A DNA stretch of 64,000 bases from Micromonospora sp. M71_S20 (GTDB lineage: Bacteria; Actinomycetota; Actinomycetes; Mycobacteriales; Micromonosporaceae). Shown piece after piece: positions 2,806 through 48,418 of this stretch. Numbering within the stretch: the stretch's first letter is position 1; each line of letters opens with the position of its first letter. The DNA lies in contig NZ_RCCV01000001.1 of NCBI RefSeq assembly GCF_003664255.1, positions 4,761,662 to 4,825,661 on the forward strand, read 5' to 3'. The position numbers were made by a program, and so were the translations under genes. The notes under the pieces are model-generated. The model did not search any database. It had not been told where the DNA came from and saw nothing but the letters and a program-made list of their open reading frames with translations.

Positions 2806-3345
2806 TCAGTCGGCCAGGTACCGGGCGGGCACCGCGTCGGTCAGCCAGACGCCGTTGGCGCTGCGATAGAAGGCGTGCCCGTCGCGGGCCATCGCCGCCG
2901 CGTCCACGGTCAGCACCACCAGCTCGCCCGGCCGGCGGGCACCCACCCGCCGGGCGGTCGCCACGTCCGGCGACAGGTGGACGTGGTGCCGGCCGGCCCG
3001 GTGCAGGCCGGTGGCCCGGATCGAGTCGAGCGCGACGCGGCTGGTGCCGTGGTAGAGCCGCGCCGGCGGCGGGCTGGGCGCCAGTTCCAGGTCGACCGGG
3101 ATCGAGTGCCCCTGGTTGGCCCGGACCCGTTCGACGCCGTCGGCACCGCGTTCCACGGCGAAGCGCTGCTTGTCGTTGCCGGCCACCACGGCGTCCAGGT
3201 CGGCCCGGTCGATCCCGAGCGCGGCGAGCAGGTCGTCGACCGACACCCAGCCGGCCCGGTCGGGCACGAGGCCGAACCGGGCGGGCTCGTGCCGCAACGC
3301 CAGGGACATCCGCTTGCTCAGCCGCACCATCGCCCGGTGATCCAT
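2806..3345 (-). CDS. kptA: RNA 2'-phosphotransferase, Tpt1/KptA family
   Basis: 179 residues. The enzyme transfers the internal 2'-phosphate of a splice junction to NAD+, making ADP-ribose 1'',2''-cyclic phosphate; some homologs ADP-ribosylate RNA 5'-phosphate ends. Visible motifs are LSKRMSLALRHEP (Arg18-His19, catalytic region), NQGHS at about 77-81, YHGTS at about 98-102 and HLSPD at about 123-127. Length is typical for bacterial KptA. The ATG at 3345 is supported by GGGGAG 9 nt upstream; the longer frame has no homology. The protein is intact in every conserved position I can check. Bacteria lack the classical tRNA-splicing substrate, so the cellular role is open; a NUDIX gene converges on it, and an RNA ligase lies 9 kb away. 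Confidence 0.95.
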   Translation of the reverse strand: MDHRAMVRLSKRMSLALRHEPARFGLVPDRAGWVSVDDLLAALGIDRADLDAVVAGNDKQRFAVERGADGVERVRANQGHSIPVDLELAPSPPPARLYHGTSRVALDSIRATGLHRAGRHHVHLSPDVATARRVGARRPGELVVLTVDAAAMARDGHAFYRSANGVWLTDAVPARYLAD

Positions 3346-25567: not shown

Positions 25568-26374
25568 TCAGGCGACGTGGCGCAGGTAGCCCGCGACCGA
25601 CGCGTCCAGGACCTCCCGGCCGGGCCGGGCCCACACCTCGGCCGAGAAGACCTCCACCTCGACCAGCCCGGTGTAGCCGGCCTCGTCCACGGCCTCCCGC
25701 AGCCGGCGCAGCTCGATGCAGCCGTCCCCGGGCAGGGCCCGGCCGAGCAGCACCCCCTCGGGCAGCGGGGTGACCCAGTCGCACACCTGGAACGCGGCGA
25801 TCCGCGCCCCCGCCCGGGCGATTTGCGCGTACACCGTGTCGTCCCACCACACGTGGTAGGCGTCGACGACGACCCCGACCACGCCCGGGTCGAACCGCTC
25901 GGCGATGTCGAGCGCCTGGCCGAGGGTCGACACCACGCAGCGGTCGGCGCAGAACATCGGGTGCAGCGGCTCGATCGCCAGCCTCACCCCCGCCGCGGCG
26001 GCGTGCGGGGCCAGCTCGGCGATCGCGTCGGCCACCCGGTGGCGGGCGCCGTCGACGTCCCGGCTGCCCGCCGGCAGACCACCGGAGACCAGCACGAGGA
26101 CCGAGGTGCCGAGGGTGGCGGCCTCCTCGATGGCCCGCAGGTTCTCCTCCCGCCAGCCGTCGGCGGTGAAGAAGCCGCCCCGGCAGAGCGACGTCACCTC
26201 AAGGCCGGCGTCGCGGACCAGCTTCGCGGCGCGGGCCAGCCCGTGTTCGGCGACCGGCTCCCGCCACAACCCGATCCCCGGCACACCGGCGGCGACGCAA
26301 CCGGCGACCACCTCGGGCAGCGGCCAGTGCTGCGACGTGGCCTGGTTGAACGAGAACCGTTCCAGCCCACTCAC
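25568..26374 (-). CDS. Sugar phosphate isomerase/epimerase (xylose-isomerase-like TIM barrel)
   Basis: 268 residues. The AP-endonuclease-2/xylose-isomerase-like barrel is shown by GIGLWREPV near 34, EVTSLCRGGFF near 60, VLVLVSGG near 94, LAIEPLHP near 132-139 (metal-ligand Glu), VVVDAYHVWWDD near 168-179 (metal-ligand Asp/His), and GLVEVEVFS near 237. It probably isomerises or epimerises a keto-sugar made by the upstream dehydrogenase. GTG at 26374 overlaps the stop of the DUF993 gene (GTGA). It is the last gene of the three-gene catabolic chain. Confidence 0.9.
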   Translation of the reverse strand: MSGLERFSFNQATSQHWPLPEVVAGCVAAGVPGIGLWREPVAEHGLARAAKLVRDAGLEVTSLCRGGFFTADGWREENLRAIEEAATLGTSVLVLVSGGLPAGSRDVDGARHRVADAIAELAPHAAAAGVRLAIEPLHPMFCADRCVVSTLGQALDIAERFDPGVVGVVVDAYHVWWDDTVYAQIARAGARIAAFQVCDWVTPLPEGVLLGRALPGDGCIELRRLREAVDEAGYTGLVEVEVFSAEVWARPGREVLDASVAGYLRHVA

Positions 26375-27525
26375 TGGGGCACCCCCGCGACGGTGAACAG
26401 CGCCCGGGCGCGGGCGGCGGCCAGGTCCGCGTCGGGCAGCAGCCCGGCGGCGTCGGCGAGGGTGAGCAGGGTGGCCAGGTGCGCCGGCGAGCGGCCGGTC
26501 TGCGCACCGCCGACCATCGTGAAGTGGTCCTGGTGCCCGGCCAGCCAGGCCAGGAAGACGATGCCCGTCTTGTAGTGCCAGGTGGGGGCCGCGAAGATGT
26601 GCCGGGCCAGGGGCACGGTCGGCGCGAAGATCGCGTCGTACGCCTCAAGCTCCCCCCGGTCCAGCGCGGCGAGCGCGGCGGCGGCGGCCGGCGCGATCGC
26701 GGCGAACACCCCGAGCAGCGCGTCGGAGTGGCCGCTCGCGTCGCCCCGGATCAGCTCCGGGTAGTGGAAGTCGTCGCCGGTGTAGAGGCGCACCCCGGCC
26801 GGCAGCCGGCGGCGCAGCGCCACCTCCCGGTCGGCATCCAGCAGGGAGACCTTGATCCCGTCCACCCGGGTGTCGTGGGCCTTGATCAGCCCGATGACGG
26901 CGTCGGCGGCCTCGTCGAGGTCCGTCGACCCCCAGTAGCCCGCGAGCGCCGGGTCGAACATCGGGCCGAGCCAGTGCAGCACCACCGGCTCGTCGGCGGC
27001 GCTCAGCAGTTCGTCGTACACCCGCAGGTAGTCCTCCGGGCTGCGGGCGGCGGCGGCCAGGTGGCGGCTGCACATCAGCACCGGGCGGGCCCCGGCGGCC
27101 CGCACGTCGTCGAGCTGCTCGCGGTAGGCGCGGGTGACCTCGGCCAGGGTCGCCGGGCCGGGCGGGAGCTGGTCCGTGCCGACGCCGGCGACGATCCGCC
27201 CGCCGACCGCGCGGGCCTCGGCGGCGCTGCGCCGGATCAGCTCGCGGGTGGCCGGGTAGTCCAGGCCCATGCCGCGCTGCGCGGTGTCCATCGCCTCGGC
27301 CACCCCGAAGCCGTACGACCACAGGTGGTGCCGGAACGCCAGGGTGCGGTCCCAGTCCAGCACGGCCGCGGCGCCGGGGACGTTCTCGGCCGTCGGATCG
27401 GCCACCACGTGCGCGGCGGCGTACGCGATGCGGCTCGTCGGCGGCCCGGCGGGGCGCGGGAAGCCGGCGCCCCCGGTCAGCCGGTACCGCCGCCCACCGG
27501 GCAGCACCACCTCGGCAGCGCTCAC
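26371..27525 (-). CDS. DUF993 / dihydrodipicolinate-synthase-superfamily protein
   Basis: 384 residues. The family is annotated as DUF993 and predicted to be a class-I aldolase-like TIM barrel. Recognisable stretches are IAYAAAHVVADP near 33, DWDRTLAFRHHLWSYGFGVAEAMDTAQRG near 58-86 (a DUF993 hallmark), VDGIKVSLLD near 222-231 with a Lys where Schiff-base lysines often stand, and YTGDDFHYPELI near 248. Neighbours (dehydrogenase, isomerase, LacI) suggest a carbon-chain cleavage step on a sugar or cyclitol; the reaction is unproven. Its GTG start overlaps the stop of the repeat-encoded mini-ORF, with GGAGGTGG upstream. Confidence 0.88.
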   Translation of the reverse strand: MSAAEVVLPGGRRYRLTGGAGFPRPAGPPTSRIAYAAAHVVADPTAENVPGAAAVLDWDRTLAFRHHLWSYGFGVAEAMDTAQRGMGLDYPATRELIRRSAAEARAVGGRIVAGVGTDQLPPGPATLAEVTRAYREQLDDVRAAGARPVLMCSRHLAAAARSPEDYLRVYDELLSAADEPVVLHWLGPMFDPALAGYWGSTDLDEAADAVIGLIKAHDTRVDGIKVSLLDADREVALRRRLPAGVRLYTGDDFHYPELIRGDASGHSDALLGVFAAIAPAAAAALAALDRGELEAYDAIFAPTVPLARHIFAAPTWHYKTGIVFLAWLAGHQDHFTMVGGAQTGRSPAHLATLLTLADAAGLLPDADLAAARARALFTVAGVPQ

Positions 27526-27657
27526 AGCTCCACCTCCGTTCGCGACTGCGGGGCTCGCAACCCCGGCTCACTCCTCGCGCTCACAGGTCCACCTTCCGTT
27601 CGCGACTGCGGGGCTCGCAGACCCGGCTCACTCCTCGCGCTCACAGCTCCAGCTCCG
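27521..27657 (-). repeat. About 60-bp tandem repeat, two copies plus a partial third
   Basis: Copy A is 27521-27579 (59 bp) and copy B is 27580-27639 (60 bp); bases 27640-27657 repeat the first part again. Each copy contains the stretch GCGACTGCGGGGCTCGCA and CTCACTCCTCGCG. From memory, similar sequences recur in Micromonospora intergenic regions, so this may be a dispersed element. The repeat edges CTCACAG stand exactly at the stop of the oxidoreductase gene and the start of the DUF993 gene. Confidence 0.85.
27522..27644 (-). CDS. Repeat-encoded 40-codon mini-ORF linking two genes
   Basis: The repeat is open in one frame from GTG 27644 to TGA 27522-27524. The GTG overlaps the oxidoreductase stop (GTGA) and the TGA overlaps the DUF993 start (GTGA). 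The peptide is two near-identical 20-residue halves, each containing SARSEPGLRAPQSRTE. A GAAGG/GGAGG-like site precedes each following GTG. Whether the peptide has a function is unknown; the frame may simply preserve translational coupling after insertion of the repeat. Confidence 0.45.
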   Translation of the reverse strand: MSARSEPGLRAPQSRTEGGPVSARSEPGLRAPQSRTEVEL

Positions 27658-28792
27658 GGATGTCCAGGCGGGCGCCCTCGCGCGCCGACCGCAGGCCCAG
27701 CTCGGCGAGCTGCACGCCGCGCGCGCCGGCCAGGAAGTCCCACGGGAACGGCTCGTTGGCGACGACGTGCCGCAGGAACGCCTCCCACTGCACCTTGAAG
27801 CCGTTGTCGAACTCCTCGTTGTCCGGCACCTCCGTCCACTGTGACCGGAAGGGCTCGGTGACCGGCAGGTCGGGGTTCCACACCGGCTTCGGGGTGACCG
27901 CCCGGTGCTGCACCCGGCAGCTGCGCAGGCCGGCCACGGCGCTGCCCTCGGTGCCGTCGACCTGGAACTCGACCAGTTCGTCGCGGTGCACCCGGACGCA
28001 CCACGAGGAGTTGAGCTGCGCGACCACGCCGCCGTCGAGCTCGAAGATGCCGTACGCGGCGTCGTCGGCCGTCGCCGGGTACGTGCGGCCCGCCTCGTCG
28101 ACCCGCTGCGGCACGTGCGTGGCGGTGAGGCAGGAGACCGTACGCACCCGGCCGAAGAGCTCCTCCAGCACGTACTGCCAGTGCGGGAACATGTCCACGA
28201 CGATGCCGCCGCCGTCCTCGCTGCGGTAGTTCCAGGACGGGCGCTGCGCCGGCTGCCAGTCGCCCTCGAACACCCAGTAGCCGAACTCCCCGCGCACCGA
28301 CAGGATCCGGCCGAAGAAGCCGCCGTCGATGAGCCGCTTGAGCTTGCGCAGCCCGGGCAGGAAGAGCTTGTCCTGCACCACCCCGGTACGCACGCCGGCG
28401 GCGCGCGCCGCCCGGGCCAGGTCGAGGGCGCCCTCGGTGTCCTCGGCCAGCGGCTTCTCGGTGTAGATGTGCTTGCCGGCGTCCAGCGCCCGGCGGATCG
28501 CCTTCTCCCGCTGCTGGGTGACCTGGGCGTCGAAGTAGATCTCGACGTCGTCGCGGGCCAGCGCGGCGCTGAGGTCGGTGGTCCAGTCGGTCAGCCCGTG
28601 CCGCTCGGCGATCTCGCGGAGCTTGGTCTCGCTGCGCCCGACCAGGACGGGCTCGGGCCAGATCGACGTGCCGTCGGCCAGGGGCACGCCGCCCTGCTCG
28701 CGGATGGCGAGCAGGGAGCGCACCAGGTGCTGCCGGTAGCCCATCCGGCCGGTGACGCCGTTGACGATGATGCCTATCGACCTGCGGGTCAT
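27641..28792 (-). CDS. Gfo/Idh/MocA family oxidoreductase
   Basis: 383 residues. The N-terminal Rossmann fold begins IGIIVNGVTGRMGYRQHLV near 6-24, then IYFDAQVTQQREKAIRRALDAGKHIYTEKPLA near 100-131, in which EKPLA is the family hallmark. GGGIVVDMFPHWQYVLEELFG near 203-223 carries the conserved His of the C-terminal domain. It should oxidise a hydroxyl of a sugar, cyclitol or derivative with NAD(P). ATG at 28792 begins just before the Rossmann strand. It is the first gene of the chain; its stop touches the 60-bp repeat. LacI-type operators lie 100-230 bp upstream. Confidence 0.93.
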   Translation of the reverse strand: MTRRSIGIIVNGVTGRMGYRQHLVRSLLAIREQGGVPLADGTSIWPEPVLVGRSETKLREIAERHGLTDWTTDLSAALARDDVEIYFDAQVTQQREKAIRRALDAGKHIYTEKPLAEDTEGALDLARAARAAGVRTGVVQDKLFLPGLRKLKRLIDGGFFGRILSVRGEFGYWVFEGDWQPAQRPSWNYRSEDGGGIVVDMFPHWQYVLEELFGRVRTVSCLTATHVPQRVDEAGRTYPATADDAAYGIFELDGGVVAQLNSSWCVRVHRDELVEFQVDGTEGSAVAGLRSCRVQHRAVTPKPVWNPDLPVTEPFRSQWTEVPDNEEFDNGFKVQWEAFLRHVVANEPFPWDFLAGARGVQLAELGLRSAREGARLDIPELEL

Positions 28793-28890
28793 GGTGTTCC
28801 TTCCCTCCGCGGGCGCCTCCGACCGGGACGGCGGCGGGCGGCGACCTGTTCCACGCCTGCGCCGCCGCCGGGAGGCCCCCGGCGGCGGAT

Positions 28891-43834: not shown

Positions 43835-46800
43835 TCAGCCGTGCAGCCAGCGGTGGATGCACTGCAACAGGTCGGCGGCGTCGACCGGCTTCGTGACGTA
43901 GTCGCTGGCGCCGGAGGAGATGCTCTTCTCCCGGTCGCCGTGCATCGCCTTCGCGGTCACCGCGATGATCGGCAGGTCGGCGTAGCGGGGCATGGCGCGG
44001 ATCGCCGCCGTCGCGGCGTAGCCGTCCATCTCCGGCATCATGACGTCCATCAGCACGAGGTCGATGTCGTCGTGGCGCATCAGCGTCTCGATGCCCTGCC
44101 GGCCGTTCTCCGCGTAGACCACGTCGAGCCCGTGCAGCTCCAGGATGTTGGTCAGCGCGAAGACGTTGCGCGCGTCGTCGTCCACCACCAGCACCTTGCG
44201 GCCGGCCAGGTCGGCGGGCAGGGCGTCGACGGCGGGACGGACGTCGGGCACCACCGCGGCGAACGGCAGCACCCGCTCCGGGGTCACCGCCGTCAGGTGC
44301 AGGGCGATCCGCTCGCGCAGGTCGTCCAGGCTGCGCAGGACCTCCAGCGGCCGCTCGTGGGCCAGCGCCTGCAACAGGGCCTGCGAGCCGGGCGGCAGCG
44401 GGTGGCCGTGGTACGCCAGCACGGGCACCCCGCGCAGCACCGGATCGTCGTGCAGCGCCTTCAGCAGGTTCGTACCGCCGTCGTCGGGCAGGTCGAGCTG
44501 GAGCACCATGACGTGGTGCCGCCCGCCGGCGAGCGACTCGAGCGCCGAGGCCACGTCCACCGCGGTGGAGATCTCCACCGGCGGGTGCGCGTCGCCCAGG
44601 TCCGCCGCGACGCCCTGGGCGAGCAGCGTCAGCAGCCCCTTGTCGTGGCGCTCCAGCACGAGCATCCGGCGGACCTCGCCGGGCTGCAGCGTCACGGCCG
44701 GCGGCAGGGTGGCCGGGGCCGCCCAGGGCAAGCTGGCCGGCGGCGTCCAGGGCAGCGCGCCGGCACGGCCCGTTGCCGGCGACGGGCCGGTCGGGCGGTC
44801 GTCCGCAGCCGCGTCGCCGGTCCCGGCGGGCACCGGCCCGACGGGCAGGTAGAGGGTGAACGTGCTGCCCCGGCCGAGCACGCTGTGCGCCTGGATCCGG
44901 CCGCCGAGCAGGTGGGCGATCTCCCGGCTGATGGACAGCCCGAGGCCCGTGCCCCCGTACCGCCGGCTGGTCGTGCCGTCGGCCTGCTGGAACGCGTCGA
45001 AGATGGCGGTCAGGTGCTGTTCGGCGATGCCGATCCCGGTGTCGATCACCCGGAACGCGAGGACGGTGTCCGTCGGGGCGAGCCCCTCGGGCAGCTCGCC
45101 CGGCGCGGCCCGCTCGATGCGCAGCCGCACCCGCCCCTTCTCGGTGAACTTGACCGCGTTGGAGACCAGGTTGCGCAGCACCTGCCGCAGCCGCTGCTCG
45201 TCGGTGTGCAGCTCGGTCGGCACGCCCGGGCCGGTGCTGATCTCCAGCTCCAGGCCCCGGGGCGTGGTCAGCGGCCGGAAGGTGGCGTCGACGTAGTCGC
45301 GCAGCGCGGCCAGCTCGAAGGTCTCCGGGTTGATGTCCATCTTGCCGGCCTCCACCTTGGACAGGTCGAGGATGTCGTTGATGAGCTGGAGCAGGTCGGT
45401 GCCGGCCGAGTGGATGACCGTGGCGTACTCGACCTGCTTGGCGGTCAGGTTGCGGTTCGGGTTCTGCGCGAGCAGCTGGGCGAGGATGAGCAGCGAGTTC
45501 AGCGGCGTACGCAGCTCGTGGCTCATGTTGGCGAGGAACTCCGACTTGTACTTGGAGGCGAGGGCGAGCTGCTGGGCGCGGGCCTCCAGCTCCTGCCGGG
45601 CCTGCTCGATCTCGGAGTTCTTCGTCTCGATGTCGTGGTTCTGCCGGGCCAGCAGGGCCGCCTTGTCCTCCAGCTCGGCGTTGGAGCGCTGGAGTTCCTC
45701 GGAGCGTGCCTGCAACTCCTCCGAGCGGGCCTGCAACTCCGCGGCGAGGCGCTGCGACTCGGTGAGCAGCACGTCGGTGCGGGCGTTGGCGACGATGGTG
45801 TTGACGTTGACGCCGATGGTCTCGGTCAGCTGGTCGAGGAAGTCGCGTTGCACCTCGGTGAAGCGGCTCATGCTGGCCAGCTCGATGACGCCGAGCACCT
45901 GGTCCTCGAAGAGGATCGGCAGCACCACCAGGTGCAGCGGGGCGGCGGCGCCGAGGCTGGAGGAGACGGTGACGTAGTCGGCCGGCACGGTGTCCACCAC
46001 GATGGCCCGCTTGCTCACCGCGGCCTGCCCGACGAGGGAGTCGCCGAGGGCGTACCGGCGGCCGGTGGTGTCGTGCCCGTACCCGCCGACGACCCGCAGG
46101 CCGGTCCCGCCGGGGCCGTCGTCCACCAGCAGGAACGTGCCGAGCTGCGCGGAGACCAGCGGGGCCAGCTCGTTCATCACCAGACCGGCGACCACGTCCA
46201 GGTCGCGGTGGCCCTGCATCAGGCCGGCGATGCGGGCCAGGTTGGTCTTGAGCCAGTCCTGTTCCTGGTTGGTGCGGGTGGTCTCGCGCAGCGACTCCAC
46301 CATCGAGTTGATGTTGTCCTTCAGCTCGCCGACCTCGCCGGGGGCGTCCACGGTGATGGAGCGGGTCAGGTCGCCGGTGGCCACGGCGCTGGTCACCTCG
46401 GCGATGGCGCGCACCTGGCGGGTGAGGTTTCCGGCCAGCTCGTTGACGTTCTCGGTGAGCCGCTTCCAGGTGCCGGAGACGCCCTCGACCTCGGCCTGCC
46501 CGCCGAGGCGGCCCTCGCTGCCGACCTCCCGGGCCACCCGCGTCACCTCGGCCGCGAACGACGACAGCTGGTCCACCATCGTGTTGATGGTGGTCTTCAG
46601 CTCCAGGATCTCGCCGCGCGCGTCGACGTCGATCTTCTTGGTCAGGTCGCCCTGGGCCACCGCGGTGGTGACCTGGGCGATGTTGCGGACCTGGCCGGTG
46701 AGGTTGTTCGCCATCGAGTTGACGTTGTCGGTGAGGTCCTTCCAGGTGCCGGCCACGTTCGGCACCCGCGCCTGGCCGCCGAGGCGGCCCTCGGTGCCCA

Positions 46801-48418
46801 CCTCGCGGGCCACCCGCGTCACCTCGTCGGCGAACGCGCCGAGCGTGCCGACCATCGTGTTGATGGTCTGGGCGAGCACGGCCACCTCGCCCTTGGCCTC
46901 CACGGTGATCTGCCGGCTCAGGTCGCCCTGGGCGACGGCGGTGGCGACCAGCGCGATCGAGCGCACCTGGTTGGTGAGGTTGTTGGCCATCTCGTTGACG
47001 TTGTCGGTGAGGTCCTTCCAGGTCCCGCCGACATTGGACACCCGGGCCTGGCCGCCGAGGCGGCCCTCGGTGCCCACCTCCCGGGCCACCCGCGTCACCT
47101 CGTCGGCGAACGCGGAGAGCTGGTCGACCATCGTGTTGATGGTCTCCTTCAGCGCCAGGATCTCGCCGCGCGCGTCGACCCGGATCTTCTGGGTCAGGTC
47201 GCCCTTCGCCACGGCGGTGGTCACCTCGGCGATGCTGCGCACCTGGGCGGTGAGGTTGTCCGCCATGACGTTGACCGACTCGGTGAGGTCCTTCCAGGTG
47301 CCGGAGACGCCCTTGACGTCCGCCTGGCCGCCGAGGCGGCCCTCGGTGCCGACCTCGCGGGCCACCCGGGTCACCTCGTCGGCGAACGACGACAGCTGGT
47401 CCACCATCGTGTTGTTGGTGTTCTTCAGCTCCAGGATCTCGCCGTGCGCGGTGACGGTGATCTTCTGCGACAGGTCGCCCCGGGCCACCGCCGTGGCCAC
47501 CTGCGCGATGCTGCGCACCTGGTCGGTGAGGTTGACCGCCATGGAGTTCACCGAGTCGGTGAGGTCGCGCCAGGTGCCCGCGACGCCGCTGACCTGGGCC
47601 TGACCGCCGAGCCGCCCGTCGGTGCCGACCTCGCGGGCCACCCGGGTCACCTCGTCGGCGAACGACGACAGCTGGTCCACCATCGTGTTGATGGTGCTCT
47701 TGAGCTCCAGGATCTCGCCCCGGGCGTCGACGGTGATCTTCTGCGACAGGTCGCCCCGGGCCACGGCGGTGGTGACCTGGGCGATGTTGCGGACCTGGCT
47801 GGTCAGGTTGCCGGCCATGAAGTTCACCGAGTCGGTGAGGTCGCGCCAGGTGCCGGCCACGCCGGGCACCTCGGCCTGTCCGCCGAGGCGGCCCTCGCTG
47901 CCGACCTCCCGGGCCACCCGCGTCACCTCGTCGGCGAACGACGACAGCTGGTCCACCATCGTGTTGATGGTGATCTTCAACTCCAGGATCTCGCCGCGCA
48001 CGTCCACGGTGATCTTCTGCGACAGGTCGCCCCGGGCCACCGCCGTGGCCACCTCGGCGATGTCGCGGACCTGGTCGGTCAGGTTGCCCGCCATGGCGTT
48101 GACCGAGTCGGTGAGGTCCTTCCAGGTGCCCGACACCCCGGGCACCTCGGCCTGGCCGCCCAGTTGCCCCTCCGTGCCCACCTCCCGGGCCACCCGGGTC
48201 ACCTCGGAGGTGAACAGCGACAGCTGGTCGACCATGCCGTTGAAGACGGTGGCGATCTCCCCGAGCAGTCCGTCGGCGTCCTCGGGCAGCCGGGTGCCGA
48301 AGTCACCGTCCCGCACCGCCGTCAGGCCGGCCAACAGCTGCCGGAGCCCCGGGTCGGCCATCGCCGCGGCCCCACCGGTCGCCGGATTGCGCCGCGCCGC
48401 CGTCTTCTCGACCACCAC
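43835..48418 (-). CDS. Soluble poly-HAMP hybrid histidine kinase with GAF and receiver domains
   Basis: About 1527 residues, no membrane helix. Residues about 25-70 are a HAMP-like start. Seven 92-residue HAMP-type repeats follow (about 72-715), each beginning [10 protein letters not shown] and containing a GTWKxLT motif and a T(I/T)NTMV-like helix. A GAF domain is at about 735-880, a long coiled coil at 885-955, HisKA at about 957-1025 (SHELRTPLN, His near 968), HATPase at about 1070-1190, a degenerate receiver at about 1250-1375, and a true receiver at about 1405-1520 ([12 protein letters not shown], Asp near 1456). The arrangement recalls fungal group III osmosensing kinases. GTG at 48418 has GAGG 5 nt upstream; other GTGs and ATG 48462 are possible. 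No partner regulator is adjacent. Confidence 0.93.
46274..48205 (-). repeat. Seven tandem 276-bp coding repeats (HAMP units)
   Basis: The kinase gene contains seven in-frame copies of a 276-bp unit, each encoding 92 residues. Short strings such as GGCCACCCGCGTCACCTCG recur exactly every 276 bp (for example near 46,535, 46,811 and 47,087). High DNA similarity between units suggests recent duplication or gene conversion. Confidence 0.92.

Follow-up and report, generated by a model that had tools for sequence, protein, structure and literature searches.

REP, BIME and MITE-type bacterial repeats occur as many short copies that carry no internal transposase gene. Rickettsia palindromic elements are located within genes, where they add protein and are tolerated through open reading frames. 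Mycobacterial interspersed repetitive units (MIRUs) insert at DTGA stop/start overlaps, and are reportedly the subject of Supply et al. 1997, Mol Microbiol 26:991. A 2025 review (PMC12548453), which cites that paper, presents MIRUs as apparently mobile elements that insert at start codons, carry an ORF coupled at -4 nt and likely have a minimal effect on expression. Two further papers (PMC4213456, PMC2453075) give MIRU unit lengths of 77 and 53 bp, both of which are 2 mod 3 by our own arithmetic and so match the rule reported below for the Micromonosporaceae. MIRU loci are also in widespread use as typing markers. The idea of an operon-bridging repeat is not new: mycobacterial MIRUs are described in these terms in the same review (PMC12548453).

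Here, we follow up an insert in Micromonospora sp. M71_S20, found in a stretch of 64,000 nucleotides (contig NZ_RCCV01000001.1, positions 4,761,662 to 4,825,661) that we call the window. A sequence-only reading had noticed that an oxidoreductase gene and a DUF993 gene are separated by two repeats of 59/60 bp with the string CTGTGAG at both edges, and that the insert encodes a mini-ORF of 40 codons with a doubled 20-residue peptide. All of these are present in the sequence: the coordinates given in that reading are correct, the units run from 27644 to 27585 and from 27584 to 27526, and the mini-ORF (27644..27522) overlaps both neighbours through GTGA. The reading had further described the repeat as open in frame, with a GTG at its start and a TGA at its end. 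The open frame and the edges stand, while the TGA overlap comes only from the 59-bp last unit; the 60-bp first unit reads on without a stop. The features are as follows.

27641..28822, minus strand: Gfo/Idh/MocA-family oxidoreductase, the upstream gene (Pfam PF22725, PF02894, PF01408), with its stop TGA at 27643..27641; the start within this span is our choice, the listed ORF being longer.
27645..27648, minus strand: AGCT, target bases, left copy of an apparent duplication (from the sequence and the excess of flank/tail identity at -1 to -4).
27641..27644, minus strand: left GTGA, in which the oxidoreductase stop and the GTG start of the mini-ORF overlap.
27585..27644, minus strand: repeat unit 1, 60 bp, continuing in frame into unit 2 (sequence, Tandem Repeats Finder).
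27526..27584, minus strand: repeat unit 2, 59 bp, with its TGA within the next GTGA (sequence, Tandem Repeats Finder).
27522..27644, minus strand: mini-ORF, 40 codons plus TGA, with a 4-nt overlap with each neighbour.
27530..27537, minus strand: Shine-Dalgarno-like GGAGGTGG, part of the unit, 4 nt upstream of the DUF993 start.
27526..27529, minus strand: AGCT, target bases, right copy of an apparent duplication (from the sequence).
27522..27525, minus strand: right GTGA, in which the mini-ORF stop and the DUF993 start overlap.
26371..27525, minus strand: DUF993 protein gene, downstream, 384 aa (PF06187, E 5.8e-178).
25568..26374, minus strand: xylose isomerase-like TIM-barrel protein gene, next in line (ORF list, Pfam).

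Tandem Repeats Finder places the array at 27518-27657 (period 60, score 243). Read by hand, the two 20-residue units of the peptide differ in their last three residues. The next junction of the operon, between the DUF993 and isomerase-like genes, is a GTGA overlap (26371-26374) that has no element in the window. A separate tandem array lies elsewhere in the window, at 46296-48235: seven copies of a 276-bp unit with 81% matches.

We consider it very likely that the insert is a tandemly doubled copy of a short mobile repeat family of the Micromonosporaceae that is MIRU-like in its working. The insert belongs to a dispersed repeat family. An exact family pattern (30 set positions, gap of 5-25) has 34 copies in the own genome and none in the reversed-pattern control, and the window repeat is therefore not a product of chance; blastn lists 50 matches in the same genome. 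The unit has a period of 56, 59 or 62 bp and consists of GTGAGCGCGAGGA...CCCGCAGTCGCGAAC followed by a Shine-Dalgarno (SD)-like tail. The sequence-only reading had supposed an element able to enter operons, and the pattern is found, beyond the own genome's 34 exact copies, among relatives: 30 of 101 sampled genomes of the bacterial family, from 15 of 44 genera (own genome included), carry it, with controls at 0 among the rows listed. Among the matches listed, the carriers are nearly all Micromonospora, together with Plantactinospora, Verrucosispora and other Micromonosporaceae. A sample of the class yields 3 matching genomes out of 394, all three of the window's genus. Outside the Micromonosporaceae, which are represented in this sample by three same-genus genomes only, the exact pattern is absent, and the 38 genomes of the same order but other families likewise give no exact match. 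As the genome patterns (34 copies, 30/101, 3/394) are exact, diverged copies are missed in these counts. No description of the repeat in Micromonosporaceae came up among the best-ranked literature matches, including term searches of PMC4182475 and PMC10969869.

For the positions and lengths of the copies, we rely on a strict unit finder, which returns 163 arrays with 257 units in 149 of 150 sequences. An earlier finder had lost 28 of 169 arrays with a fuzzily matched core of more than 50 nt; the stricter one repeats the main counts and the two sets of results agree, whereas the site clustering and the core/tail Fisher test refer to the first finder's array set only. At least one of the 163 arrays, located in the window far from the DUF993 insert, looks like a chance match. 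The element is also present on a plasmid, pLB1 of M. terminaliae (NZ_CP045310.1), between two annotated genes 55 bp apart; in the coordinates of locus L196, which covers this site, the CDS on one side has its end at 2504 and its neighbour begins at 2560, with no annotated gene in between. The adjoining acyltransferase CDS on pLB1 is annotated on both strands, that is, twice, and the search gives two places of the element in this record. In the own genome, locus L032 has a decayed copy (about 3036-3076), in which 13 bp close to the start are missing; the deletion apparently took place between two TGAGC strings within the unit.

The left edge of an array is GTGA in 141 and ATGA in 8 of the 163 cases (149/163 together), and CTGA in one. 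In 106 of the 144 testable arrays, the TGA of this edge closes an open, coding-like frame that is 100 codons or longer, compared to 3.7% of 12121 DTGA sites in the same loci, a control counted with the elements still included. On the other side, a coding-like start follows within 30 nt of the array in 122 of 150 cases (9 more are untestable), and this start opens with GTGA in 95 and with ATGA in 20 of the 122 arrays. The own genome alone gives a similar picture, with an ORF closed in 21/26, a start present in 22/26 and a span of 2 mod 3 in 20/22. By similarity, the genes downstream of 106 arrays form 68 clusters. In the remaining 38 of 144 arrays the left edge closes no coding ORF, so that the target would be the start codon and not only the overlap.

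This enrichment at overlaps is no proof of targeting, because insertions within genes would be purged. An element without any target specificity could insert anywhere, with selection leaving only the copies that landed in a usable frame at a stop/start overlap where they are tolerated, and the contrast of 106/144 with 3.7% alone cannot show otherwise. In addition, the left GTGA may derive from the element itself and is then not independent evidence of a target. The right-hand start is where untargeted insertion fits poorly: of the arrays whose left edge closes no coding ORF, 26 have an identified start, which even here reads GTGA or ATGA in 25 of them, and across sites the right-hand start is GTGA in 58 of 68, against 95 of 179 native overlaps. 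We regard untargeted insertion as unlikely, and insertion at DTGA start codons as the more probable reading.

The bases next to the insert add to this picture. With one array taken per site (68 sites), positions -1 to -4 before the DTGA are the only ones at which left flank and tail are identical more often than under permutation (z of 5.1, 1.8, 3.0 and 4.1, respectively, -2 being weak). From -5 to -8 these sites have no excess of identity, and the same -1 to -4 pattern is obtained in all 122 arrays. The duplication is partial: all four bases agree at 7 of the 68 sites (1.15 expected). At position 0 there is no significant excess (z of -0.4 and 0.7 in the 68 sites, 1.7 in the 122 arrays), and the base before TGA is G at 67/68 sites on the left, 58/68 on the right and in 95/179 native overlaps. 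These proportions leave two readings: either the element brings its own GTGA and the duplication covers 4 bp, or the duplication covers N4GTGA (8 bp) and the right start drifts afterwards. A duplication of more than four upstream bases was considered and rejected, since single sites match over at least 9 bases, yet mean identity ends at -4. Where flank matches are longer, they mostly seem to reflect the presence of SD-like bases in flank and tail alike; an SD-like string occurs in 91/106 array tails and 76/129 left flanks, compared to 12.9% of random windows. One site, L121, does not fit. Its ten bases upstream of GTGA are identical in left flank and tail, perhaps because the insertion is recent and duplicated a longer stretch.

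Orthologous loci allow the same junction to be compared with and without the insert. DUF993 orthologs are present in 53 of 61 genomes of the genus, and 30 of these loci were read. The oxidoreductase gene ends in GTGA or ATGA at all 30 junctions with DUF993. At 23 of them the junction is empty, with a direct overlap (13 GTGA and 10 ATGA, by our count), and the proposal that the two genes once shared a GTGA overlap is borne out by these relatives without the repeat. The junction is filled in four genomes: two copies in the window genome and in G143, one in G124 and in G116. The other three hold a different sequence, namely a different short repeat (G156, G129) or an unusual longer start (G133). 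The following junction, between the DUF993 and isomerase genes, is filled at five of the 30 loci, with two copies in G104 and G137, one in G154 and G128 and three in G133; G124 has a remnant, and the remaining ones have a GTGA or ATGA overlap without an element.

Several individual loci deserve a description. At the DUF993/isomerase junction of G133, three complete tandem units are followed by a truncated fourth. At the same junction of G124, the isomerase-like gene seems to be joined to what is left of the element's 5' part, possibly as a new N-terminus. The different short insert of G156 and G129 (GTGAGCGAGCGAA...CCAGCAGGCTCGGTAG...) is located right after the oxidoreductase stop, at the GTGA of the oxidoreductase/DUF993 junction; its core occurs in one copy each in G156 and G129 and in one two-mismatch copy in G045, whereas the own genome and G003 have no copy.

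On a DUF993 gene tree with 30 labelled rows, the states of the junctions require at least three changes at oxidoreductase/DUF993 and at least five at DUF993/isomerase; counted against filled rows only, the numbers are 3 and 3, and well supported branches force at least two changes at each junction. With multiple changes on the tree, the element has been inserted, or lost, more than once. That is, there is repeated gain or loss, and the tree does not tell the two apart.

These empty and filled sites also bear on the idea that the repeat is a conserved cis-acting RNA or regulatory element, such as a translation enhancer, attenuator or promoter, and not mobile. Strong nucleotide conservation, the SD-like tail and one covarying pair of columns (G-C in 80 and A-T in 12 of 100 distinct units) would be expected of such an element, and, according to PMC4213456, the MIRU region of senX3-regX3 reportedly has promoter activity and drives expression. 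Yet a fixed regulatory element is difficult to reconcile with a junction that is empty in 23 of 30 orthologs while the other junction of the same operon is filled elsewhere, with the 68 clusters of downstream genes or with the tendency of the four flanking bases towards duplication. An RNA family was considered and rejected, there being no Rfam match. A stable RNA structure was rejected for the window copy, since 173 of its 200 shuffled versions fold as well or better, and the family-wide consensus fold is a weak outer stem only (-5.2 kcal/mol). A purely regulatory, immobile element thus appears improbable. As for the covarying columns, GGA[G/A] and AG[C/T]CCC, they are a hint of hairpin formation, be it in RNA or in single-stranded DNA.

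The lengths of the units follow a frame rule. Spans of single-copy arrays, measured from start codon to next start codon, are 59 (42 arrays), 56 (10) and 62 (9) in 61 of 70 cases; the other nine are 60 (6), 57, 58 and 69. Since 59, 56 and 62 are all 2 mod 3, the TGA of the mini-ORF falls within the next DTGA. When single and multiple arrays are taken together, the last unit has a length of 2 mod 3, and with it the exact 4-nt overlap, in 106 of 122 cases; 13 are 0 and 3 are 1 mod 3. The 93 inner unit spacings are more mixed: 54 are 2 mod 3, 36 are 0 mod 3, among which the window's unit 1 also belongs by its length, and 3 are 1 mod 3. Altogether, 147 of 195 steps end in an overlapping TGA and 35 read on in frame, so that 182/195 are unbroken, and the failing ones comprise 6 early stops, 4 overruns in another frame and 3 without a start. 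An unbroken chain of overlaps and in-frame steps leads to the next gene in 111 of 122 arrays (66/70 single, 45/52 multiple) and is broken in 11. The suggestion that the repeat would lie at stop/start overlaps and in frame elsewhere as well therefore holds for most copies, be it by closure of a coding ORF (106/144), by last-unit length (106/122) or by the chain (111/122).

The frame rule extends to differences within the family. A 43-nt core goes with a tail of 14 or 17 nt in 55 arrays and of 15 nt in 8, whereas a 41- or 38-nt core mostly has a 16-nt tail (44 arrays). In other words, a change of length in the middle of the unit is balanced at its end. The core/tail counts and the Fisher test on them concern copies, not events, and the P value overstates independence because only about four length classes exist. 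The decayed copy at L032, having lost 13 bp, has a tail shorter by 2, and its span of 41 (counted by hand) is still 2 mod 3.

It could be argued that the mini-ORF is maintained for its product, a functional small peptide, as the frame is open in most copies and the peptides examined begin with VSAR or MSAR. The 3' half of the unit speaks against this. Its nearly identical bases are read as RAPQSRTE in the 43-nt core and as SPAVANE in the 41- and 38-nt cores, in different frames, which argues that the bases and the relay are kept and the peptide is not. Pfam and NCBIfam give no match for the two mini-ORF peptides tried, and we consider a functional peptide very improbable. From sequence comparison, it is the predicted relay, rather than the peptide, that is conserved.

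Based on these observations, we propose the following scheme for a mobile, relay-keeping repeat. The element would insert at DTGA start codons, mostly those that overlap the stop of the preceding gene, and would tend to duplicate the four bases directly upstream. The left GTGA would then serve as the stop of the upstream gene, in its old frame and at the same place, and as the start of the mini-ORF. The mini-ORF may be initiated at the left GTG with the help of the native SD that lies in the last part of gene A, and the downstream gene B could be restarted by the SD-like tail and the retained DTGA. A span of 2 mod 3 would close the mini-ORF in the TGA of the next DTGA, whereas a span of 0 mod 3 would lead to in-frame read-through. 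Translation would pass from A to the mini-ORF and on to B via successive 4-nt overlaps or in-frame reading, and units could be stacked with the chain kept at any copy number. We infer that ribosomes use this relay and that insertions are tolerated through it. The element itself would be moved in trans by some enzyme.

Regarding that enzyme, no mobile partner of the element was found. A longer autonomous relative split into halves was considered for the own genome and rejected: by eye, 39/39 matches of the left half and 45/46 of the right half lie at blastn-listed sites (the exception, C3:555075, has one mismatch), and no split, longer relative was seen there. Mobilisation as a REP-like element by an IS200/IS605 or RAYT (Y1) transposase, a group that a short, hairpin-capable element with oriented insertion at a tetranucleotide would resemble, is highly doubtful: of the 6 same-genus genomes in the sample, 5 lack any match to Y1_Tnp (PF01797), the window's own being among these six, with 8 to 39 exact copies each, and flanking duplication is not generally expected for this group. 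A more far-reaching version of the trans-mobilised repeat is possible, and we offer it tentatively. It holds that the family is a distinct lineage of mobile DNA in the Micromonosporaceae, with length, ends and tail shaped to preserve the ribosome relay (internal changes balanced at the other end, the peptide being free to vary) and moved by an enzyme reading N4^DTGA. Its origin would be independent of the MIRUs, and operon-tolerant repeats would form a convergent class.

How does the family compare to the known systems? Like REP, BIME and MITE-type repeats, it comprises many short copies with no transposase gene inside. Unlike them, it is oriented at DTGA and has an open, frame-keeping mini-ORF, and the Y1 transposase is absent in 5 of 6 same-genus carriers. 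Of the features of a classical MITE, there is the excess of identity in the four flanking bases and, judged by eye, no clear terminal inverted repeat. With Rickettsia palindromic elements it shares tolerance via open frames; the Micromonosporaceae repeat, however, is intergenic and could relay translation.

The closest architecture is that of the MIRUs, for which the best-ranked literature matches contained no account of how the units move or of any importance of their mini-ORFs. Both points can be put to the test in the second, abundant system of Micromonospora and its relatives, where orthologous sites occur in empty and filled form and the frame rule can be measured. There is also a warning for annotation, as such inserts may pass for small genes or N-terminal extensions. 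The two families differ in host and size. The listed carriers are Micromonosporaceae rather than mycobacteria, 38 same-order genomes of other families have no exact match, and the units measure 56, 59 or 62 bp as opposed to 53 or 77. Frame compensation between subfamilies, differing peptide frames and a 4-base duplication are found in the Micromonosporaceae repeat, the comparison with MIRUs being one of architecture only. In that architecture the likeness is close: both are short, dispersed and tandem repeats between the genes of operons (here 163 arrays with 257 units), both sit at start codons or DTGA overlaps (149/163 left edges, 106/144 closures, empty sites of GTGA or ATGA), and both have a small, co-oriented internal ORF with a 4-nt overlap with the downstream gene (106/122). 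By these architectural tests, the repeat may be called a MIRU-like element of the Micromonosporaceae.
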